Below the pieces are notes generated by a model. It saw only the letters and a list, made by a program, of their open reading frames with translations, was not told where the DNA came from and ran no database searches. DNA of 64,000 nt, taken from Salinispora arenicola (GTDB lineage: Bacteria; Actinomycetota; Actinomycetes; Mycobacteriales; Micromonosporaceae). A program made the translations under genes and the position numbers. Of this stretch, positions 41,349-49,330 are shown piece after piece (positions within the stretch are counted from its first letter, which is position 1; each line of letters opens with the position of its first letter). Location: assembly GCF_006716065.1 (NCBI RefSeq), contig NZ_VFOL01000001.1, positions 3,472,001-3,536,000 on the forward strand, in the 5' to 3' direction.

Positions 41349-42677
41349 ATGCCCAGGTACGACGTGATCGTTATCGGAGCCCGCTGTTCGGGCGCGTCCA
41401 CTGGCATGCTTCTGGCCCGACAGGGATACCGAGTGCTGGTGGTGGACAGGTCAACCTTTCCCAGCGATGTCATCTCGACCCACTTTCTCTGGCCACACGG
41501 GACGTCCTACCTGAACCGATGGGGCCTGCTGGATCAGGCACTGGCGGTCACCCCGGCACACACCGAGGTCACCTTCGTCAACGACGGGATTCCGCTCACC
41601 GGCTCGGTGCCGGACGAGCTACTGCGCGCCTACTTCCGCGACTGGCACGGCGACGACACGGGCGTGGTGCGCTCGTACGCCTCGATCCGCCGGCACGTGC
41701 TCGACCAGATGTTGGTCGAGGCGGCGAGCAAGGCCGGCGCCGAGATACGGACGAACTTCACGGTGCGGGAGCTGATTACCGAAGGAGAGCAGGTCGTCGG
41801 CGTACGGGGACGCACCTCCGACGGGCGGTTGGTCGAGGAGCGTGCCCGGATCGTGGTCGGCGCCGACGGCCGCAACTCGTTCGTCGCCCGCTCCCTCGGC
41901 CTGCCCAAGTTCGACGAGCGGCCACGGTGCACCTTCGCCTACTGGAGCTACTACTCCGGCTTTGACCTCGGCCCTGCCCAACTGCACCGACGAGGTCGGC
42001 TGGCCTGTGCCGTGGCGCCCACCAACCACGACCAGAACATGGTCCTGGTCTGGGGCCCGAGCGAGTGGTCGCGTGAGTTCCGCCGCGACGTGCCCGGCAA
42101 CTTTCAGCGGGCGCTGGATTTCGTCAGCCCGGAACTGGGCGAGGTGGTCCGGACGCAAGGCGTGCGCGCGGAGCGCATCTACGGGACGCTGGACCAGTCC
42201 GCGTTCCTCCGGCCGTTGGCGGGGCCGGGCTGGGTGCTTGTCGGGGACGCCGAGTCAGCCAAGGACCAGTGCACCGCGATCGGGATGACCCACGCGTTCC
42301 GGGGCGCGGAGTTGGTCGCCGACGCGCTCGGCCGGTGGCTCTCCGGGGACGTGTCCCTCAACGAGGCGATGACCACCTATGAAAGCCGTCGCCGCAGCCA
42401 GAACGCCGCCGCCTACTACGACTATGTCTGCACGCTCGCTGAGATGCGACCGTACCGCCACGACGAACTACAGCTGTTCGTGGCGTTGCGCGGAAACCAG
42501 CAGGAGATCGACCGGTTCGTCGCTACCCACGCTGACATCGCGCCGGTTTCGGAGTTTTTCCAGGCCTCGAACCTCCTCCTGCTCAACGACGCGGCGAAGG
42601 AGTCCTCCGCCGGCTACCCGGTGTTCGACGACTTCCCCACGACCGCTCGGATGTACCAGCAGAACCTGTTCGCCTGA
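41349..42677 (+). CDS. FAD-dependent oxidoreductase (PHBH/geranylgeranyl-reductase-like)
   Basis: A 442-residue flavoprotein of the group that includes p-hydroxybenzoate hydroxylases and geranylgeranyl reductases. VIVIGARCSGASTGMLLARQG (residues 5-25) is the FAD loop, VVDRSTFPSD the acidic strand, VVGADGRNSFVAR the DG motif, and GWVLVGDAESAKDQ the GD motif. GGAAGGGAA precedes ATG 41349. It is 21 bases before the oxoamine synthase gene, so it probably oxidises or reduces a substrate or product of that enzyme. No halogenase WxWxIP motif is seen. Confidence 0.88.
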   Translation: MPRYDVIVIGARCSGASTGMLLARQGYRVLVVDRSTFPSDVISTHFLWPHGTSYLNRWGLLDQALAVTPAHTEVTFVNDGIPLTGSVPDELLRAYFRDWHGDDTGVVRSYASIRRHVLDQMLVEAASKAGAEIRTNFTVRELITEGEQVVGVRGRTSDGRLVEERARIVVGADGRNSFVARSLGLPKFDERPRCTFAYWSYYSGFDLGPAQLHRRGRLACAVAPTNHDQNMVLVWGPSEWSREFRRDVPGNFQRALDFVSPELGEVVRTQGVRAERIYGTLDQSAFLRPLAGPGWVLVGDAESAKDQCTAIGMTHAFRGAELVADALGRWLSGDVSLNEAMTTYESRRRSQNAAAYYDYVCTLAEMRPYRHDELQLFVALRGNQQEIDRFVATHADIAPVSEFFQASNLLLLNDAAKESSAGYPVFDDFPTTARMYQQNLFA

Positions 42678-42698
42678 CCCGTCCCCCGGAGATCGACT

Positions 42699-44243
42699 GT
42701 GTCCCTGCCTGAGCTTGACCAACGCGACGACGACGAACTGATCGAAACCATCCTCGCGGCCGCTGACCGGCGCGATCTGGCGGCCATGGCGGTAGCCGCG
42801 GCCGAGGTCTCCGAGATGACCCGCAACTGGGCCACCCACATCCCGTGGGACGAGTTCGACTCGTTGGACGAGATCGCCCTGGACGAGGTGATCGCCGACC
42901 TGACCCAGATGTGGGAACCCGTCAACCTGCAGGTTGACGCCGACGAGGAGTACGCGCTCGACAAGAACGCCTATGACTTCTACCGGCCGGTGGGACGTAA
43001 CCTGATGACCCGCACCGAGGAGTTCCACGGGTGGGTCGAGGCGCGGCGACGGACCGAGACGTGGCAGTACTCCAGGACGCTGGAGGCCGCGCCGAACAGC
43101 GTCGCCCAGATCACCAACGACATCGGCCGGCGCACCCGCGGTATCAACTTCAACTCGCAGGACTATCTGTCGTTCAACACGCACCCGGCGATCCGGGAGG
43201 CGGCGACCAAGGCGATGCGCGACTACGGGCCGCACAGCGCCGGGTCACCGATGGTGCTCGGGAACACCCGGATCTCCGACGAACTGGAGGCATCGCTCGG
43301 CGAGCTGGTGCGGGCCGAGCAGGTGACCCTCTTTCCGACCGGCTGGGCCGCCGGGTTCGGTGCGATGGCGGGGCTGGTCCGCCAGGAGGACCACGTTCTG
43401 ATCGACCGGCTGGCGCACTCCTGCCTCCAGCAGGGGGCCCGGGCGACCACCCGCAACGTGGTGCGCTACGAACACCTCAACGTCGACGAGGTCCGTCGCC
43501 ACCTCGTCGACATCCGCCGGCGCGACAGCCGCAACGGCATCCTCGTCGTCACGGACGGTCTCTTCTCGGTGGATGCGGACTGGCCGGATCTGGTGACCCT
43601 TCAGCGGGTGTGCCGGGAGCACGACGCGACGCTGCTCGTCGACGTGGCACACGACCTGGGTTCGATGGGCCCGGGTGGTACCGGTGTGCTCGGTATGCAG
43701 GACGTGCTCGGCGACATCGACATCGTGATGGGCGCCTTCTCCAAGACGTTCTGCTCCAACGGCGGTTTCGTCGCCTCGGCCTCCCCCGCGCTCAAGCAGT
43801 ACCTCAAGATGTTCGGCGGATCGCACATGTTCTCCAACGCGTTGTCTCCGGTGCAGACCGCCGTGGTCCTGGAAGCCTCGAAGATCATTCGGTCTGCGGA
43901 GGGAGACCTCCTCCGGTCCCGGCTGCACACCGCCGTCACCGCGCTGCGCGATGAGTTGATCGGGCACGGTCTGACGTGTATGGGAGAGCCGTCGCCGATC
44001 GTGCCGCTCCTGATCGGAAACGAGAAGCTGGCGCGGATCGCGAACCGCCTGCTGTTCGACCGCGGTGTGCTCGCGTTCATGGTGGAGTTTCCGGTGACCC
44101 CGACGGGCTCGTCGCGGTTCCGGCTCCAGGTGCAGGCAAATCACGAGCCGGATGAGGCGCGCGCAGCAGCGAGGATCATCGCGGACGCGATCACGGACGC
44201 CCGGACGTACCTGTCCAGTGCCTTCGGGAGCACACAGCGGTAG
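42699..44243 (+). CDS. Alpha-oxoamine synthase (ALAS/KBL/CqsA-like) with extra N-terminal domain
   Basis: A 514-residue PLP enzyme that should join an amino acid to an acyl thioester with loss of CO2. The core from about residue 145 holds NFNSQDYLSF, HSAGSPMVLGNTRISDELE, TLLVDVAHDLGSMG (Asp for the PLP nitrogen) and GAFSKTFCSNGGF with Schiff-base Lys349. Ahead of it lie about 140 acidic residues not found in simple ALAS, KBL or BioF proteins. The only gene in its operon is the FAD enzyme, and a strong terminator follows. Lack of heme or biotin genes argues against housekeeping ALAS or BioF; a small-molecule aminoketone or modified lipid is more likely. Confidence 0.86.
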   Translation: MSLPELDQRDDDELIETILAAADRRDLAAMAVAAAEVSEMTRNWATHIPWDEFDSLDEIALDEVIADLTQMWEPVNLQVDADEEYALDKNAYDFYRPVGRNLMTRTEEFHGWVEARRRTETWQYSRTLEAAPNSVAQITNDIGRRTRGINFNSQDYLSFNTHPAIREAATKAMRDYGPHSAGSPMVLGNTRISDELEASLGELVRAEQVTLFPTGWAAGFGAMAGLVRQEDHVLIDRLAHSCLQQGARATTRNVVRYEHLNVDEVRRHLVDIRRRDSRNGILVVTDGLFSVDADWPDLVTLQRVCREHDATLLVDVAHDLGSMGPGGTGVLGMQDVLGDIDIVMGAFSKTFCSNGGFVASASPALKQYLKMFGGSHMFSNALSPVQTAVVLEASKIIRSAEGDLLRSRLHTAVTALRDELIGHGLTCMGEPSPIVPLLIGNEKLARIANRLLFDRGVLAFMVEFPVTPTGSSRFRLQVQANHEPDEARAAARIIADAITDARTYLSSAFGSTQR

Positions 44244-44295
44244 CCGGTGCCGCGCCGGGACGGGCGCGGTCGGTGGCTCAGCGCAACGAGGGCCC

Positions 44296-44329
44296 GAGAG
44301 GCGGGGCGGCCAAGCCGCCCCGCCCTCTC
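44296..44329 (+). terminator. Terminator after the oxoamine synthase
   Basis: GAGAGGCGGGGCGGC pairs with GCCGCCCCGCCCTCTC around CAA, 15 base pairs with one bulged C. It separates the FAD/oxoamine synthase operon from the next SDR gene. Confidence 0.85.
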
Positions 44330-44384
44330 ACGCGTCAGCTGAGGTCGGCCGGGTAACCCATGACTCGGCTGGAAGGAGGCTCCG

Positions 44385-45089
44385 ATGGCCCGAACCGTGG
44401 TGGTGACCGGCGGCAACCGGGGAATCGGCCTGGCCACCGCGCAGGCATTCAGCAGGCAGGGCGACCGGGTGGCGGTGGCACACCGTGGGCGGGAATTCCC
44501 AGACGGGATGTTCGGGGTCAGGTGTGACGTCCGCGACGCGGCCAGCGTCGACGCGGCTTTCGACGAGGTCGAAGCCGAGTTGGGACCGGTCGAGGTGTTG
44601 GTGGCCAACGCCGGCATCATCGACGACGGGCCGTTTCCGCAGCTGACCGAGGCACAGTTCGGTCGGGTACTGGACACCAACCTCACCGGTGCCTTTCGGT
44701 GCGCCAGCCGCGCATCGCACAGCATGCTGCGGGGAGGGTGGGGTCGGTTGATCTTCCTCTCCTCCGTGGTTGGCCTCACGGGCAGCCACAGCCAGGTCAA
44801 CTACGCCGCCAGCAAGGCCGGGCTGGTCGGCATGGCCCGCTCGCTCACCCGCGAACTTGCCAGTCGCAACATCACCGCGAACGTGGTGGCGCCGGGACCG
44901 GTCGAGACCGAGCAGTTCGCCGCCGTACCCGACGAGCGGCGGGCCGAGTTCCATCGGGCGATCCCCGCTGGCCGGTTTGCTCAGCCGGATGATGTCGCCG
45001 GCGTGGTCACCTGGCTGGCTGGGGACACCGCCAGTTATGTCTCCGGCGCGATCATTCCGGTCGACGGTGGCCTCAGCATGGGACATTAG
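44385..45089 (+). CDS. SDR-family reductase (FabG/MabA-like)
   Basis: A 234-residue SDR: TGGNRGIG (residues 8-15), NAG near 78, catalytic FLSSVVG and YAASK (residues about 143-147), C-terminal PVDGG. It lacks the usual Arg cluster after TGGN but otherwise resembles MabA/FabG1, beta-ketoacyl-ACP reductase. GAAGGAGG precedes the ATG. It is separated from the oxoamine synthase by a terminator, so it is an independent unit; a joint role is possible but not shown. Confidence 0.87.
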   Translation: MARTVVVTGGNRGIGLATAQAFSRQGDRVAVAHRGREFPDGMFGVRCDVRDAASVDAAFDEVEAELGPVEVLVANAGIIDDGPFPQLTEAQFGRVLDTNLTGAFRCASRASHSMLRGGWGRLIFLSSVVGLTGSHSQVNYAASKAGLVGMARSLTRELASRNITANVVAPGPVETEQFAAVPDERRAEFHRAIPAGRFAQPDDVAGVVTWLAGDTASYVSGAIIPVDGGLSMGH

Positions 45090-45208
45090 GTGCTGACGCC
45101 TTCCAGCGTCCGGTCCGCCGTTTGACCCGACGACCACCGGGTAGCCGCGCTCGGCGACGCCGCGTCCGCGCGCCGGGACCAACCCGATGGCGAGGGGGAA
45201 GACATTCG

Positions 45209-45826
45209 ATGGCTGCCCAGACCAGAGTCGCGGTGATCTACTACAGCGCGACCGGCATCACGTACCAGCTGGCCAAGGCCGTGTGTGAGGCTGCCGGCGA
45301 CACCGGCGCCGAGGTGCGGCTCCGCAAGGTGCGAGAGCTGGCGCCGGACGAGGCGATCCGGGCGAACGCGGGCTGGCATGCCCACCGGCTCCAGACCCAG
45401 GACGTGCCGGAGGCCGAGCCTGACGACCTGACCTGGGCGGACGTGGTGATCCTTGGATCACCCACCCGCTACGGTCTGGTCGCCGCGCAGCTCAAGCAGT
45501 TCATCGATACCACCGGGCCGCTCTGGACGCGTGGCGCGTTGGCCGACAAGGTCTACTCCGCCTTCACCTCCACCGCCACCCTGCACGGCGGCCAGGAAAC
45601 GACGCTCACCTCCCTCTTCTCCGTCTTCTACCACTGGGGCGGGATCGTGGTCACCCCTGGCTACACCGATCCGAGCCAGTTCGTCGCCGGCAACCCGTAC
45701 GGCGCCTCGCACACCAGCAACAATGCGGAGGTGGCCCCGGACAGCACCGCGCTCGGCGCGGCGGCGCTCACCGCCCGACGGGCGGTGCGGATCGGTGCCG
45801 CGCTGAAACAGGGGCTTGCCGGCTAA
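45209..45826 (+). CDS. wrbA: WrbA-type NAD(P)H:quinone oxidoreductase
   Basis: A 205-residue flavodoxin-fold FMN protein. AVIYYSATGITYQLAKAV is the phosphate loop (usual S-x-T-G/GN-T), ILGSPTRYGLVAAQLKQFID and SAFTSTATLHGGQETT match WrbA, which reduces quinones by two electrons. ATG 45209 has GAGGGGGAA ten bases upstream. Its 3' end overlaps the convergent anthranilate synthase gene by 59 bases, so the two cannot be fully transcribed at once without interference. Confidence 0.9.
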   Translation: MAAQTRVAVIYYSATGITYQLAKAVCEAAGDTGAEVRLRKVRELAPDEAIRANAGWHAHRLQTQDVPEAEPDDLTWADVVILGSPTRYGLVAAQLKQFIDTTGPLWTRGALADKVYSAFTSTATLHGGQETTLTSLFSVFYHWGGIVVTPGYTDPSQFVAGNPYGASHTSNNAEVAPDSTALGAAALTARRAVRIGAALKQGLAG

Positions 45827-47723
45827 CCTCGGCGGAACTCGGCGCGGAAAGCAGGTCACCCAACAGGTCAGCGAGGACGTCCACACCGTCCGGGCTGAGC
45901 ACCGACTCGGGGTGGAACTGCACTCCGGCCACGCTGGCGCCGCGCAGCGCGTGCACCGCCCCGCTCGCGTCGTCCCGGGCCACCTCCACCGGACCGTACC
46001 GGGTGTGCAGGTGGTCCGCGTGCGCCCGAGCGGTGTACGTCGAGTAGAAACCGACCCGCCGTGGCGTACCGAAGATCGATACCTCCCGTTGGAGCCCCTG
46101 GTACGGGGCGTCGCGCCGGTACAGCGGCAGCCCGAGCAGACCGCAGAGGAGTTGGTGGCCGAGGCAGACCGCGAGGGTCGGCTGGCCGGCGGCGAGCAGC
46201 CCGGCGAGCAGCCCGCGCAGCGCGGCCATCTTCGGCTCGGTCACCGCCGACGGGTCACCCGGTCCGGGGCCGACGATCACCACGTCGTACTCGTCCAGTG
46301 GGCCGGGCGCGACCCACGGCCGGACGTCAGTGGCGAGGCCGAGCGCCCGTAGCTGGTGGGCGAGCATGCCGGTGAACGTGTCCTCCCCGTCCACAATCAG
46401 TGCCCGGCGGCCGGTGAGTCCGGGGCGGCCCGGGGCGTCCTCCGGCCGTTGGTCCAGCCAGAACCGGGCCAGCGGTGCGTTGCGGGCGGCCAACGCCGCT
46501 TGCACCTGTGGGTCGTCGGCGAGCCGACGCACCGTCCCCGTGGCTGGTTGGGGCGCCTGCGGGCCGAGGCCCAGCGCGGCGAGCACACCGGCGGCCTTGG
46601 CGTGCGTCTCGGCTACCTCAGCCGCGGGAACCGAATGGCGGACCAGGGTCGCCCCGACCGGCACCCGCAACTCGCCGGCGGGGGAGAGCTCGGCGGTACG
46701 GATCAGGATCGGGGCGTCCAGCGTCTGTTGGCCGGCCGGATCCCGGCCGAGCAGCGCCAGCACCCCCGCGTAGTAGCCCCGCCCGGTGCTCTCGTGACGC
46801 GCGATGACCCGGCACGCGTTCTCCATCGGGCTGCCGGTCACCGTGGGGGCGAACATGGTTTCGCGCAGCACGTCGCGCACGTCCTTCGAGCCGCGTCCCG
46901 CCAACAGGTACTCGGTGTGGGCGAGGTGGGACATCTCCTTGAGGTATGGGCCGACCACCTGGCCACCCCGTTCGGCGACGGAAGCCATCATCTTCAGCTC
47001 CTCGTCGAGGACCATGTACAGTTCCTCGGTCTCCTTGGGGTCGGCGAGAAAGCGCAGCAGGTCGGCCCGGTCGGCGGCCGCACCGGTGTGGCGGAAGGTG
47101 CCGCTGATCGGGTTCATCAGGACCAAACCGTCGTCGACGCTGACGTGTCGCTCGGGGCTCGCCCCGACCAGCGTCCGGGTGCCGGTGTGCACGACGAAGG
47201 TCCAGTAGGCGCCGCGTTCGCGCAGCAGCAGTGAGCGCAGCGCCGCCAACGCCGCCCGCAGCGGGGCGCCCTGCACAGTGGCGTGCAGGGCGCGGTGGAT
47301 CACGAAGTTGGCGCCCTCCCCGTGGCCGATTTCGTCGGCGAGTACCCGTTCGACCGTGGCCGCGTACTCCTCGTCGGTGACGTCGAAGCCGGCGTTGTGG
47401 GTGACCACTGCCGCGTCTGGCAGCGCCGCCAGCGCCGCCGCGAGGTCGACCTGTTCGTGCCGGTCGATCTCCAGGCACTCCAGCGGGGCGCTGTCGTCGA
47501 CGCAGGCGAAGCCCCGCTCGACCACCTGCCGGTATGGCACCAGGGCGAGGGTGCGCGGGCCGGGTGCCCCGGTGGGCAGTGGGATGTCGGCGAGCCGCCG
47601 CACCACCCGCACCGCTCCGGTGTACAGGTCGAGGTGGTCGGCACCCTCGCGGCGGACGAGTGCGAACGGGCCGGGATCGGTGCCGGCCGCGGCGGCGGTG
47701 AGTAGCGGGGAAAGGTGGTCCAT
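45768..47723 (-). CDS. trpEG: Fused anthranilate/ADIC synthase (TrpE-like plus glutamine amidotransferase)
   Basis: A 651-residue fusion. Residues about 20-410 are a chorismate-binding component I; about 445-640 a class I glutamine amidotransferase with nucleophile in LAVCLGHQ and VQFHPES. The chorismate segment reads TVTGSPMENACRVI, the form found in PhzE-type and in Streptomyces-type fused enzymes rather than the SGAPKxRA form of classical TrpE. It makes anthranilate or aminodeoxyisochorismate from chorismate and glutamine. GAGGAG precedes ATG 47723. A leader peptide with Trp-Trp and an attenuator precede it, as reported for the fused gene of Streptomyces venezuelae, so tryptophan represses it. 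No other trp or phenazine gene is nearby. Confidence 0.88.
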   Translation of the reverse strand: MDHLSPLLTAAAAGTDPGPFALVRREGADHLDLYTGAVRVVRRLADIPLPTGAPGPRTLALVPYRQVVERGFACVDDSAPLECLEIDRHEQVDLAAALAALPDAAVVTHNAGFDVTDEEYAATVERVLADEIGHGEGANFVIHRALHATVQGAPLRAALAALRSLLLRERGAYWTFVVHTGTRTLVGASPERHVSVDDGLVLMNPISGTFRHTGAAADRADLLRFLADPKETEELYMVLDEELKMMASVAERGGQVVGPYLKEMSHLAHTEYLLAGRGSKDVRDVLRETMFAPTVTGSPMENACRVIARHESTGRGYYAGVLALLGRDPAGQQTLDAPILIRTAELSPAGELRVPVGATLVRHSVPAAEVAETHAKAAGVLAALGLGPQAPQPATGTVRRLADDPQVQAALAARNAPLARFWLDQRPEDAPGRPGLTGRRALIVDGEDTFTGMLAHQLRALGLATDVRPWVAPGPLDEYDVVIVGPGPGDPSAVTEPKMAALRGLLAGLLAAGQPTLAVCLGHQLLCGLLGLPLYRRDAPYQGLQREVSIFGTPRRVGFYSTYTARAHADHLHTRYGPVEVARDDASGAVHALRGASVAGVQFHPESVLSPDGVDVLADLLGDLLSAPSSAEVSRQAPVSARHRSAPPVGR

Positions 47724-47743
47724 CGGGTCTCCTCGGTTCCGGT

Positions 47744-47853
47744 GCCGCCCGGTAGGGCGGTCCGGATGCCCGGTCGAAGACCGACGGCCGCCTCGATGGG
47801 CGGCCGCGTGGGAAGCTACGCGCGGGGGGTGGCCGCCAGGTCGGCGGGCCACC
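47744..47853 (-). promoter_or_regulatory. Trp attenuator RNA structures
   Basis: In transcript order: segment 1 GGTGGCC (47853-47847, contains the Trp codons), segment 2 GGCGGCCACC (47837-47828), segment 3 GCGGCCGCC (47807-47799), segment 4 GGCGGCCG (47792-47785). 1 pairs with 2, 2 with 3, and 3 with 4, the classical layout. Two further hairpins follow, CGGTC/GACCG (47771-47783) and CCGCCC/GGGCGG (47745-47760), the latter near the ribosome site. Confidence 0.78.
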
Positions 47854-47875
47854 AAAGGTGTGAGTACGCGAGCAT
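47816..47875 (-). CDS. trpL: Leader peptide with two adjacent Trp codons
   Basis: A 19-residue ORF, MLAYSHLWWPADLAATPRA, ending in TAG 47816-47818. Tandem TGG TGG codons (47854-47849) lie in segment 1 of the attenuator. TAGGGT (47883-47888) makes a good -10 seven bases before the ATG, so the leader is probably translated from the first base of the mRNA. When tryptophan is scarce, a ribosome stalled at the Trp codons would free segment 2 to pair with 3 and allow transcription of the synthase gene. Confidence 0.85.
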   Translation of the reverse strand: MLAYSHLWWPADLAATPRA

Positions 47876-47962
47876 GCGCACCACCCTACGCTGCCACCGC
47901 GGACGGCGGAAGCGGGAGTTCGACCCGGCGGCGACGCGGCAGGGCGGATAGCGTGACCGACG

Positions 47963-49330
47963 ATGAGCATTCTCGCGTTGGATCTGGGCACCTCCTCGGT
48001 ACGTGGCCTGGTGCTCGACGAGCATGCCCGTCCGCTGCCCGGGGCGCTGGCCCGGCGTCGGGTGAGCCTCGCTGTCGGTGCGGACGGCGCCGGCACGCTG
48101 GACGCTGACGTCTATCTCGCCCGCCTCGCGCAGTGCCTGGACGCGTTGGCCGACGGTGGGCACCTGGACGACATCGATCTGGTGGCGACCTCCGCGCAGT
48201 GGCACTCGGTGGTGGCGCTCGGCGCGGCCGGTACCCCGATCGGGCCGGTGCTCACCTGGATGGACACCCGGCCGGAACCGGCCGGCGGGCAGCGCGGACC
48301 GGCCGACCCGGACGCCTTCCACCAGCGCACCGGTACCTGGTGGCATCGCTGTTACTGGTCGGTCCGCCTGCCCTGGCTGCGGAGGCGGGCCGGTGGCCAC
48401 GCCACCGGCTTCGTCGGGCTGGCGGAGTATGCCCTCAGTGTGCTGCTCGACGCGGCTCCCATGTCGGTGTCGCAGGCATCCGGCACCGGCCTGCTCGACC
48501 TCGCCACGATGGGTTGGGATCCGGAGGCCTGTGCGTTGGCCGGTACCGGCCCCGCCGAGTTGCCGGAGTTGGCGCCGGCGGGCTGGCACGGCAGGCTCCG
48601 CCCGGAGTATGCGCGCCGCTGGCCGGCGCTGGCCGGTGCCCGCTGGACCGCCCCGGTTGGTGACGGCGCCGCGTCCAATGTCGGCTCGGGTTGTGTCCTA
48701 CCGGAGCGGGCCGCGGTGACGGTGGGCACCTCGGCGGCGGTCCGGGTGGTGCGCCCCGTCGTGCCGGGCGGGCCGCTTCCCCGGCTGGCGCCGCGGCTGT
48801 GGCGGTACCGGGTTGACCACCGGCATGTCGTGACCGGTGCCGCATACTCCTCCGGCGGTAATCTTTTTGCCTGGGCGAACCGGGAGTTGCGTCTGCCCGG
48901 CGGGGAGGAGCTGGATGCAGCCCTGGCCCGGGTACCCATCGCCGGTGGGGCGCCGGCGGTGAACGTCTGCTTCGGGGGTGATCGGCCGCCCGGCCTGACG
49001 CCGGCCGGCTCCGGCGTGCTGCGCGGGCTCGGCTTCGGCACCACCTCCGTGGACATCCTGGCCGGCCTGATGCGTGGCCTCAGTGAGCTGGTCGCCGTGG
49101 ACGTGACCGCCTTGGAATCCGAGTCGGACTCGCCGATCGAGGTGGTTCTGGGGGGTGGGGCGATGGTGGCGTCCGCGTGGTGGCGCCGGGCGTTCGCCGC
49201 GGCTCTCGCTCCCCGGACGGTGTGGCACCAGCGGAATCCGGAGGTCGGCGCGACCGGTGCGGCGCTGGTCGCGCTCGATCGGATCGGCGACGCGGTAAGG
49301 CTCGTCGATGTGGACCGGACAGACCACTAG
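47963..49330 (+). CDS. FGGY-family carbohydrate kinase
   Basis: A 455-residue FGGY kinase (xylulokinase/gluconate kinase-like), phosphorylating a pentose, hexonate or polyol. ILALDLGTSSVRGLVLD is the phosphate-1 loop, VLTWMDTRP follows, then VGDGAASNVGSG and VTVGTSAAVRV (phosphate-2), FGTTSVDILAG and VVLGGGAMVAS (adenosine). TAGCGT (47949-47954) and ATG 47963 suggest a leaderless mRNA. The gene is divergent from the trp leader with 87 bases between them, so the promoters are back to back. No transporter or isomerase gene is close enough to name the sugar. Confidence 0.87.
   Translation: MSILALDLGTSSVRGLVLDEHARPLPGALARRRVSLAVGADGAGTLDADVYLARLAQCLDALADGGHLDDIDLVATSAQWHSVVALGAAGTPIGPVLTWMDTRPEPAGGQRGPADPDAFHQRTGTWWHRCYWSVRLPWLRRRAGGHATGFVGLAEYALSVLLDAAPMSVSQASGTGLLDLATMGWDPEACALAGTGPAELPELAPAGWHGRLRPEYARRWPALAGARWTAPVGDGAASNVGSGCVLPERAAVTVGTSAAVRVVRPVVPGGPLPRLAPRLWRYRVDHRHVVTGAAYSSGGNLFAWANRELRLPGGEELDAALARVPIAGGAPAVNVCFGGDRPPGLTPAGSGVLRGLGFGTTSVDILAGLMRGLSELVAVDVTALESESDSPIEVVLGGGAMVASAWWRRAFAAALAPRTVWHQRNPEVGATGAALVALDRIGDAVRLVDVDRTDH

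Follow-up and report, generated by a model that had tools for sequence, protein, structure and literature searches.

In the actinobacterium Salinispora arenicola, a gene for a fused anthranilate synthase is preceded by a short leader peptide with tandem tryptophan (Trp) codons and by four RNA segments with alternative pairings, which together very probably constitute a tryptophan attenuator operated by the translating ribosome, like that found with the fused gene of Streptomyces. Within this assignment, the direction of control and the leaderless start of the transcript are what we infer. The locus lies in a 64,000-nucleotide stretch of the genome (assembly GCF_006716065.1, contig NZ_VFOL01000001.1, positions 3,472,001 to 3,536,000), referred to below as the window, and its elements are listed here in window coordinates.

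47883..47888, minus strand: -10 box TAGGGT of the TAnnnT class, seven bases upstream of the leader ATG at 47875
47816..47875, minus strand: leader peptide open reading frame (ORF) of 19 codons, MLAYSHLWWPADLAATPRA, with ATG at 47875 and stop codon TAG at 47818-47816
47849..47854, minus strand: tandem Trp codons TGG TGG
47843..47851, minus strand: segment 1, TGGCCCGCC, partner of segment 2 (8 pairs)
47830..47837, minus strand: segment 2, GGCGGCCA, partner of segment 1 or of segment 3 (7 pairs)
47799..47807, minus strand: segment 3, GCGGCCGCC, partner of segment 2 (antiterminator) or of segment 4
47784..47792, minus strand: segment 4, GGCGGCCGT, forming a 9-bp GC hairpin with segment 3, with no U-run behind it
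45768..47723, minus strand: fused anthranilate synthase of 651 amino acids, ATG at 47723, with chorismate-binding (PF00425) and class-I glutamine amidotransferase (PF00117) domains

In the mechanism that we propose, transcription would start at the leader ATG, and a ribosome would engage the mRNA at its 5' end to translate the leader. When tryptophan is short, the ribosome would stall on the two Trp codons and cover segment 1, allowing helix 2:3 to form and the gene to be expressed; when it is plentiful, the ribosome would reach the stop codon near segment 2, helix 3:4 would form and expression would be cut off. With no ribosome on the leader, 1:2 would form, followed by 3:4, and expression would again be cut off. 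The anthranilate made by the fused enzyme would go into tryptophan, alongside that from the ordinary TrpE, which is encoded beside trpC.

Attenuators of this kind are already known from Streptomyces. A fused anthranilate synthase gene with a trp attenuator was described in S. venezuelae (Lin, Paradkar and Vining 1998, as cited in PMC1262725 and PMC4833913), and the likeness of the S. arenicola locus, which also joins a fused enzyme to a Trp attenuator, is drawn through passages of these citing papers and not through sequence. The classical trp attenuators of Corynebacterium and Streptomyces, as presented in excerpts of PMC1262725, likewise combine double or triple UGG codons with GC-rich conserved pairing segments, and the genome list in the available part of that survey names neither Micromonospora nor Salinispora. 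What is new, within the open-licence literature searched, is the occurrence of such an attenuator in these two genera and, in addition, a helix covering the Shine-Dalgarno (SD) region of the structural gene, no account of either having been found there. The experimentally known Streptomyces attenuator is thereby extended to the Micromonosporaceae, a family rich in antibiotic producers.

Conservation of the leader peptide and its codons

The 19-residue leader with tandem Trp codons, placed seven bases after a -10 box, was the core of the original prediction, and its coordinates were confirmed. Among the Micromonospora and Salinispora genomes, hereafter the genus set, leaders were read in 141 of 151, the other ten carrying fragmentary or weaker matches, and each of the 141 orthologous loci has a Trp-Trp leader with a TAnnnT box 6-7 nucleotides (nt) before its start. 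At equal spacing 20 bases further upstream the box occurs in none of the 141; only eight have an SD-like motif before the leader. The leader mRNA is predicted from these motifs to be leaderless, with transcription starting at or next to the leader ATG.

Leaders were also recovered at 56 of 60 loci chosen from 24 other genera of the family, the 60 being picked from the better matches and several genomes of the family having weak matches only. All 56 are preceded by a TAnnnT box, a count that is not independent because candidates bearing the box were preferred. In both samples the leader with its Trp codons is conserved, contrary to the lack of conservation in relatives that would have refuted the original prediction. 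No leader was seen at five paralogous loci (L224-L228), which lie in the same genomes as genus orthologues and encode enzymes 55-62% identical; these second fused synthases, like the enzymes outside the clade described below, are perhaps from secondary-metabolite clusters.

Several natural variants of the leader occur. In Pseudofrankia sp. BMG5.36 (L017) the leader carries Trp-Arg (TGG CGG) and the hairpin segments are retained, providing a natural single-Trp variant, and at L029 the leader starts with GTG. Shortened leaders of 10-12 residues, ending after Trp-Trp-Pro-Ala, were found at L020, L021, L024, L025, L302, L303, L306 and others, and L020 and L025 retain, 3' of the shortened ORF, the CGCGCGTAA text that marks the normal stop region.

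Codon choice was followed in a folding set of 146 sequences (139 distinct), made up of 134 of the 141 genus loci and 12 named loci; it includes a Plantactinospora sequence (L016) which is also among the 32 other-genera sequences of the U-run count given below, while six loci without a usable match to the protein start, and L133, which has no Trp-Trp-Pro text, fall outside it. The tandem Trp codons are present in all 139 distinct sequences, the set having been picked by Trp-Trp-Pro. In these sequences, which are related and not independent, the first Pro codon is CCC in 138 of 139, compared with 31% of Pro codons in downstream genes, and the second Ala codon is GCG in 138, compared with 39%; the first and last Ala codons are GCC in 137 and 132 of the 139, respectively, against 56% downstream, background usage being counted from the downstream genes of loci L084-L113. 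At four loci from Paractinoplanes, Dactylosporangium and Actinoplanes (L020, L021, L024 and L025) the ORF stops in the 1:2 loop and segment 2 is retained outside it. Because the codons of segments 1 and 2 are near-invariant, and because segment 2 is kept beyond the shortened ORFs, the RNA itself is under selection and, judged by this comparison, the codons forming the two segments are fixed beyond the needs of the peptide.

Pairing segments and the probable attenuator switch

Four segments able to form helices 1:2, 2:3 and 3:4, with the Trp codons in segment 1, had been proposed for the window and were borne out by folding and conservation. Folding of the complete leader gave -82.6 kcal/mol, a value that none of 200 dinucleotide shuffles reached (z = -4.04). 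In alignment A1, covering 40 of 53 representatives after exclusion of the Streptomyces and Yinghuangia rows for their longer linkers, 91.8% of cells are paired for 1:2, 93.2% for 2:3 taken together with its inner helix of the CGCGU:ACGCG type (99.3% for the 7-pair 2:3 helix itself) and 96.6% for 3:4; when the partners are slid by 1-3 columns, 13-75% of cells are paired. The clearest paired change was found in Kutzneria (L035), where U-A replaces C-G in 1:2 and A-U replaces G-C in 2:3.

Folding states were modelled with assumed ribosome footprints. Over the 139 sequences, the mean probability of helix 3:4 is 0.64 with a ribosome at the first Trp codon, 0.98 with one at the stop codon and 0.96 on ribosome-free RNA; the corresponding values for the window are 0.12, 0.92 and 0.95. 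The modelled response is that of classical attenuator logic. That the three helices exclude one another and that segment 1 holds the Trp codons is supported by conservation and folding, and hardly by covariation. A Trp attenuator of the S. venezuelae fused-gene type, which the original prediction had put forward, is supported by the leader, the exclusive helices and a clade that is shared with attenuated Streptomyces genes.

A number of observations weigh against this interpretation. Four of the 60 family loci (L276, L283, L287 and L321) yielded no leader, and Rfam yielded no match at gathering thresholds. Helices 1:2, 2:3 and 3:4 show weak covariation, some of it equalled by slid controls, with 3:4 scoring 0.102 against 0.142 for one such control; it is slight because most of the base pairs are invariant. 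The 2:3 match of individual sequences exceeds that of mononucleotide shuffles only by a modest margin (median p 0.11). Moreover, TTT occurs within about 12 bases after 3:4 in 7 of the 146 genus-set sequences.

The tail that follows hairpin 3:4 in the window, CGGTCTTCG, likewise carries no U-run, unlike the terminators in the available part of the PMC1262725 survey, all of which have poly-U tracts. Micromonospora and Salinispora, with little or no U-run after 3:4, also differ here from the S. venezuelae-type system used for comparison, and the rarity of the U-run renders classical intrinsic termination doubtful in the genus set. TTT follows 3:4 in 23 of 32 sequences from other genera, where the stretch counted differs by one base from that used for the genus set; for the wider family the count is 27 of 56 loci. 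Since only these 27 of the 56 family loci carry it, loss of the U-run is not unique to the genus set and, being variable inside the group, the U-run was not treated as defining the attenuator type.

A helix over the Shine-Dalgarno region

Our first choice for the step by which output is cut in Micromonospora and Salinispora is termination, either U-less or Rho-dependent. A second candidate arises from bases downstream of the attenuator proper; the interval originally delimited (47744..47888) takes in the leader and the segments but falls short of the complete helix formed by 47782-47776 with 47732-47726. The elements concerned are as follows.

47776..47782, minus strand: anti-SD segment GGTCTTC, directly 3' of segment 4, identified by the fold and a comparative test
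47745..47760, minus strand: GC hairpin CCGCCC-TACC-GGGCGG, enclosed by the SD helix in the predicted fold
47726..47732, minus strand: SD region GGAGACC of the structural gene, partner of 47776-47782

In translational attenuation, acting as the whole or a part of the control, the anti-SD bases would sequester the SD sequence, and formation of 2:3 would leave segment 4 available as a competitor of the downstream hairpin, thereby releasing the site. We consider this unlikely, and its principal arguments are comparative. Among the 139 distinct genus-set sequences, pairing between the SD region and the 17 nt that follow segment 4 is 6.64 kcal/mol stronger than that of shuffles, and at 54 loci of other genera (a usable start being present in 54 of the 56 family loci) it is 2.65 kcal/mol stronger. 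Decoys, consisting of 208 gene-like starts in named loci at four offsets each, with the fused genes themselves kept in, gave an excess of 0.16 kcal/mol (standard deviation (sd) 2.70) over 832 placements. Matched anti-SD and SD partners also surpass permuted ones, at -12.98 versus -12.33 (sd 0.16) for 114 distinct pairs in the genus set and -11.87 versus -9.94 (sd 0.32) for 54 pairs across genera, with 0 of 200 permutations as low in either case, although such permutation leaves shared ancestry in place. Paired changes in the helix include GGUCUC:GAGACC, CGUUUCC:GGAAACG, CGUUCCC:GGGAACG and GUCGUUCC:GGAACGAC, and the rarity of the U-run in the genus set points in the same direction.

Other measures are less favourable. 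The window helix, GGUCUUC:GGAGACC, is ordinary in strength and is equalled by 8% of decoys, and at several family loci the pairing is no better than that of their own shuffles. The longest paired run gives only a weak excess for single sequences (median p 0.17, with 22% under 0.05), and when a longer tail is taken, roughly one in four of the 208 decoys is as strong as the median SD helix of other genera. Taking these comparisons together, the SD helix is, in our view, real in the family.

A switch acting on this helix is harder to sustain. Equilibrium accessibility of the SD is nearly equal with the ribosome on the Trp codons (0.20) and at the stop codon (0.16). Opening of the start region is 2.74 kcal/mol cheaper in the stalled state, but controls mimic this mostly when segment 2 is shuffled (1.99) and fully when the inner region is shuffled (3.05) or the downstream half is exchanged (2.72), and in the window the sign is reversed, with costs of 9.6 stalled and 8.1 released; an SD switch operating through equilibrium folding was rejected, since the apparent effect was largely reproduced by the controls. 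The idea that loss of the U-run is tied to a stronger SD helix was also rejected, the helix having the same strength with and without a U-run (p = 0.92, 54 family loci).

Tentatively, and with some doubt, a second lock may be envisaged for the fused-trpE attenuators of the Micromonosporaceae, in which an anti-SD strand occupies the site expected for the U-tract and, through matched substitutions, stays complementary to the ribosome binding site. Control in Micromonospora and Salinispora, where the U-tract is mostly gone, may have shifted from intrinsic termination towards translation, leaving a series of lineages at stages between these two outputs. Should the SD helix prove functional, the family would constitute a natural series for a change in attenuator output from transcription to translation. 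T-boxes, which sense tRNA, provide a partial parallel. Those of actinobacterial ileS genes are likewise amino-acid related leaders with an SD-sequestering helix, and differ in having no leader peptide, a likeness drawn by description only, from the available text of PMC1262725.

Identity of the fused enzyme and its genomic setting

The best match of the fused enzyme in the PDB is PhzE (3r74; 595 bits), with which it shares the fused domain order, the TGSP segment and similarity over residues 30-621. The original prediction, which drew on the PhzE-like TGSPMENAC segment, saw a secondary-metabolism-like enzyme tied to tryptophan supply. Such an enzyme would be a 2-amino-2-deoxyisochorismate (ADIC) synthase with PhzE function, making a secondary metabolite, and the attenuator would couple that pathway to tryptophan, a reading which we regard as very improbable. 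Among the 25 listed of 43 NCBIfam matches, none reaches its own cut-off, and the products of anthranilate synthase and ADIC synthase are said, in the excerpt of PMC5958127, to be undecidable from sequence.

A different picture emerged from a tree of 81 named fused enzymes, in which the S. venezuelae and S. lividans sequences are not included. The window protein falls within a 48-row clade, with a support of 99 in the Shimodaira-Hasegawa-like approximate likelihood ratio test (SH-aLRT), that comprises genes of Micromonosporaceae, Frankiaceae, Streptomycetaceae and Kutzneria, and the three Pseudomonas PhzE rows (L033, L042 and L047) lie outside it. An automatic scan recorded leaders in 46 of the 48 clade rows, the remaining two being L029, with its GTG start, and L017, with Trp-Arg. 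Leaders were accepted in none of the 33 rows outside the clade, the three Pseudomonas PhzE included. Outside the clade, L046 had scored a leader in a 52-residue frame that was judged false, and a 39-residue Trp-Trp frame at L069 was set aside by the labelling rule. The claim that tied a PhzE-type enzyme to tryptophan is not supported by this placement, in a Trp-leader clade apart from PhzE.

The TGSPMENAC segment, on which that claim leaned, is present, and PhzE is the best solved relative; however, the segment does not separate the enzyme from PhzE. TGSPMENACR occurs exactly in 13 of 48 clade rows and in 0 of 33 outside, TGSPLENACR in 4 of 48 and 11 of 33, and since the counts span both sides the TGSP segment belongs to the whole fused group. 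Position 266, which is His in 44 of 48 clade rows and Arg in 24 of 33 outside, was rejected as a determinant because Pseudomonas PhzE also has His there.

Three chorismate-binding matches were detected in the genome, namely the fused gene, an ordinary trpE that is closely followed by trpC, and one in a 423-codon frame. The fused gene is near-universal in the genus set beside ordinary TrpE, which fits primary metabolism; weaker matches to the fused gene only were obtained for G018, G065, G102 and G283, and of 61 genus genomes, 57 have an ordinary TrpE that scores above its NCBIfam cut-off. No Trp-Trp frame was found in the 500 bases upstream of ordinary trpE at any of the 11 loci examined. The genome has no match to PHZA_PHZB, although control genomes were equally blank.

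In Streptomyces lividans, RNA-seq revealed a leaderless trpL1, MFAHSTRNWWWTAHPAAH, upstream of a monocistronic trpE (available part of PMC8079986). The window locus shares with it a Trp leader peptide, here predicted to be leaderless, before an anthranilate synthase gene that is probably monocistronic here too, and leaders closely similar to trpL1 precede Streptomyces genes of the same clade; the Streptomyces leaders examined have three Trp codons, and that of the window has two. Because a similar leader precedes trpE in S. lividans, and because the fused enzyme of S. venezuelae is described as an anthranilate synthase (in the portion available of PMC5897657), the clade is taken to consist of Trp-controlled anthranilate synthases. 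By this analogy and the sequence evidence above, the PhzE-like fused enzyme of nearly every genus genome examined is very probably one of these, yielding anthranilate and not ADIC. Since phzE sequences have been used for finding phenazine producers (excerpt of PMC3111181), members of the 48-row clade might be picked up falsely in such searches.

A functionless Trp-Trp ORF arising by chance in a GC-rich intergenic region, where inverted repeats are common and covariation is weak, is almost certainly not the explanation, given a leader in all 141 genus orthologues, frozen codons and a segment 1-segment 2 pattern that occurs once in the 5.63-Mb genome.

The fused gene is probably monocistronic because the recognised neighbouring genes lie on the opposite strand. 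It is flanked by genes for a WrbA-type flavoprotein (45206-45826) and an FGGY kinase (47963-49330), which occur in 10 and 13, respectively, of 80 named fused-synthase loci, mostly in Micromonospora and Salinispora. Further away, at 41349-45089 on the plus strand, three genes stand next to one another. Two of them, for an FAD-dependent oxidoreductase and for a BioF/KBL-like enzyme extended at its N-terminus by about 110 residues, lack relatives at E <= 1e-20 in the 80 loci, and the third encodes a FabG-like reductase; together they are possibly a small lineage-specific biosynthetic set.
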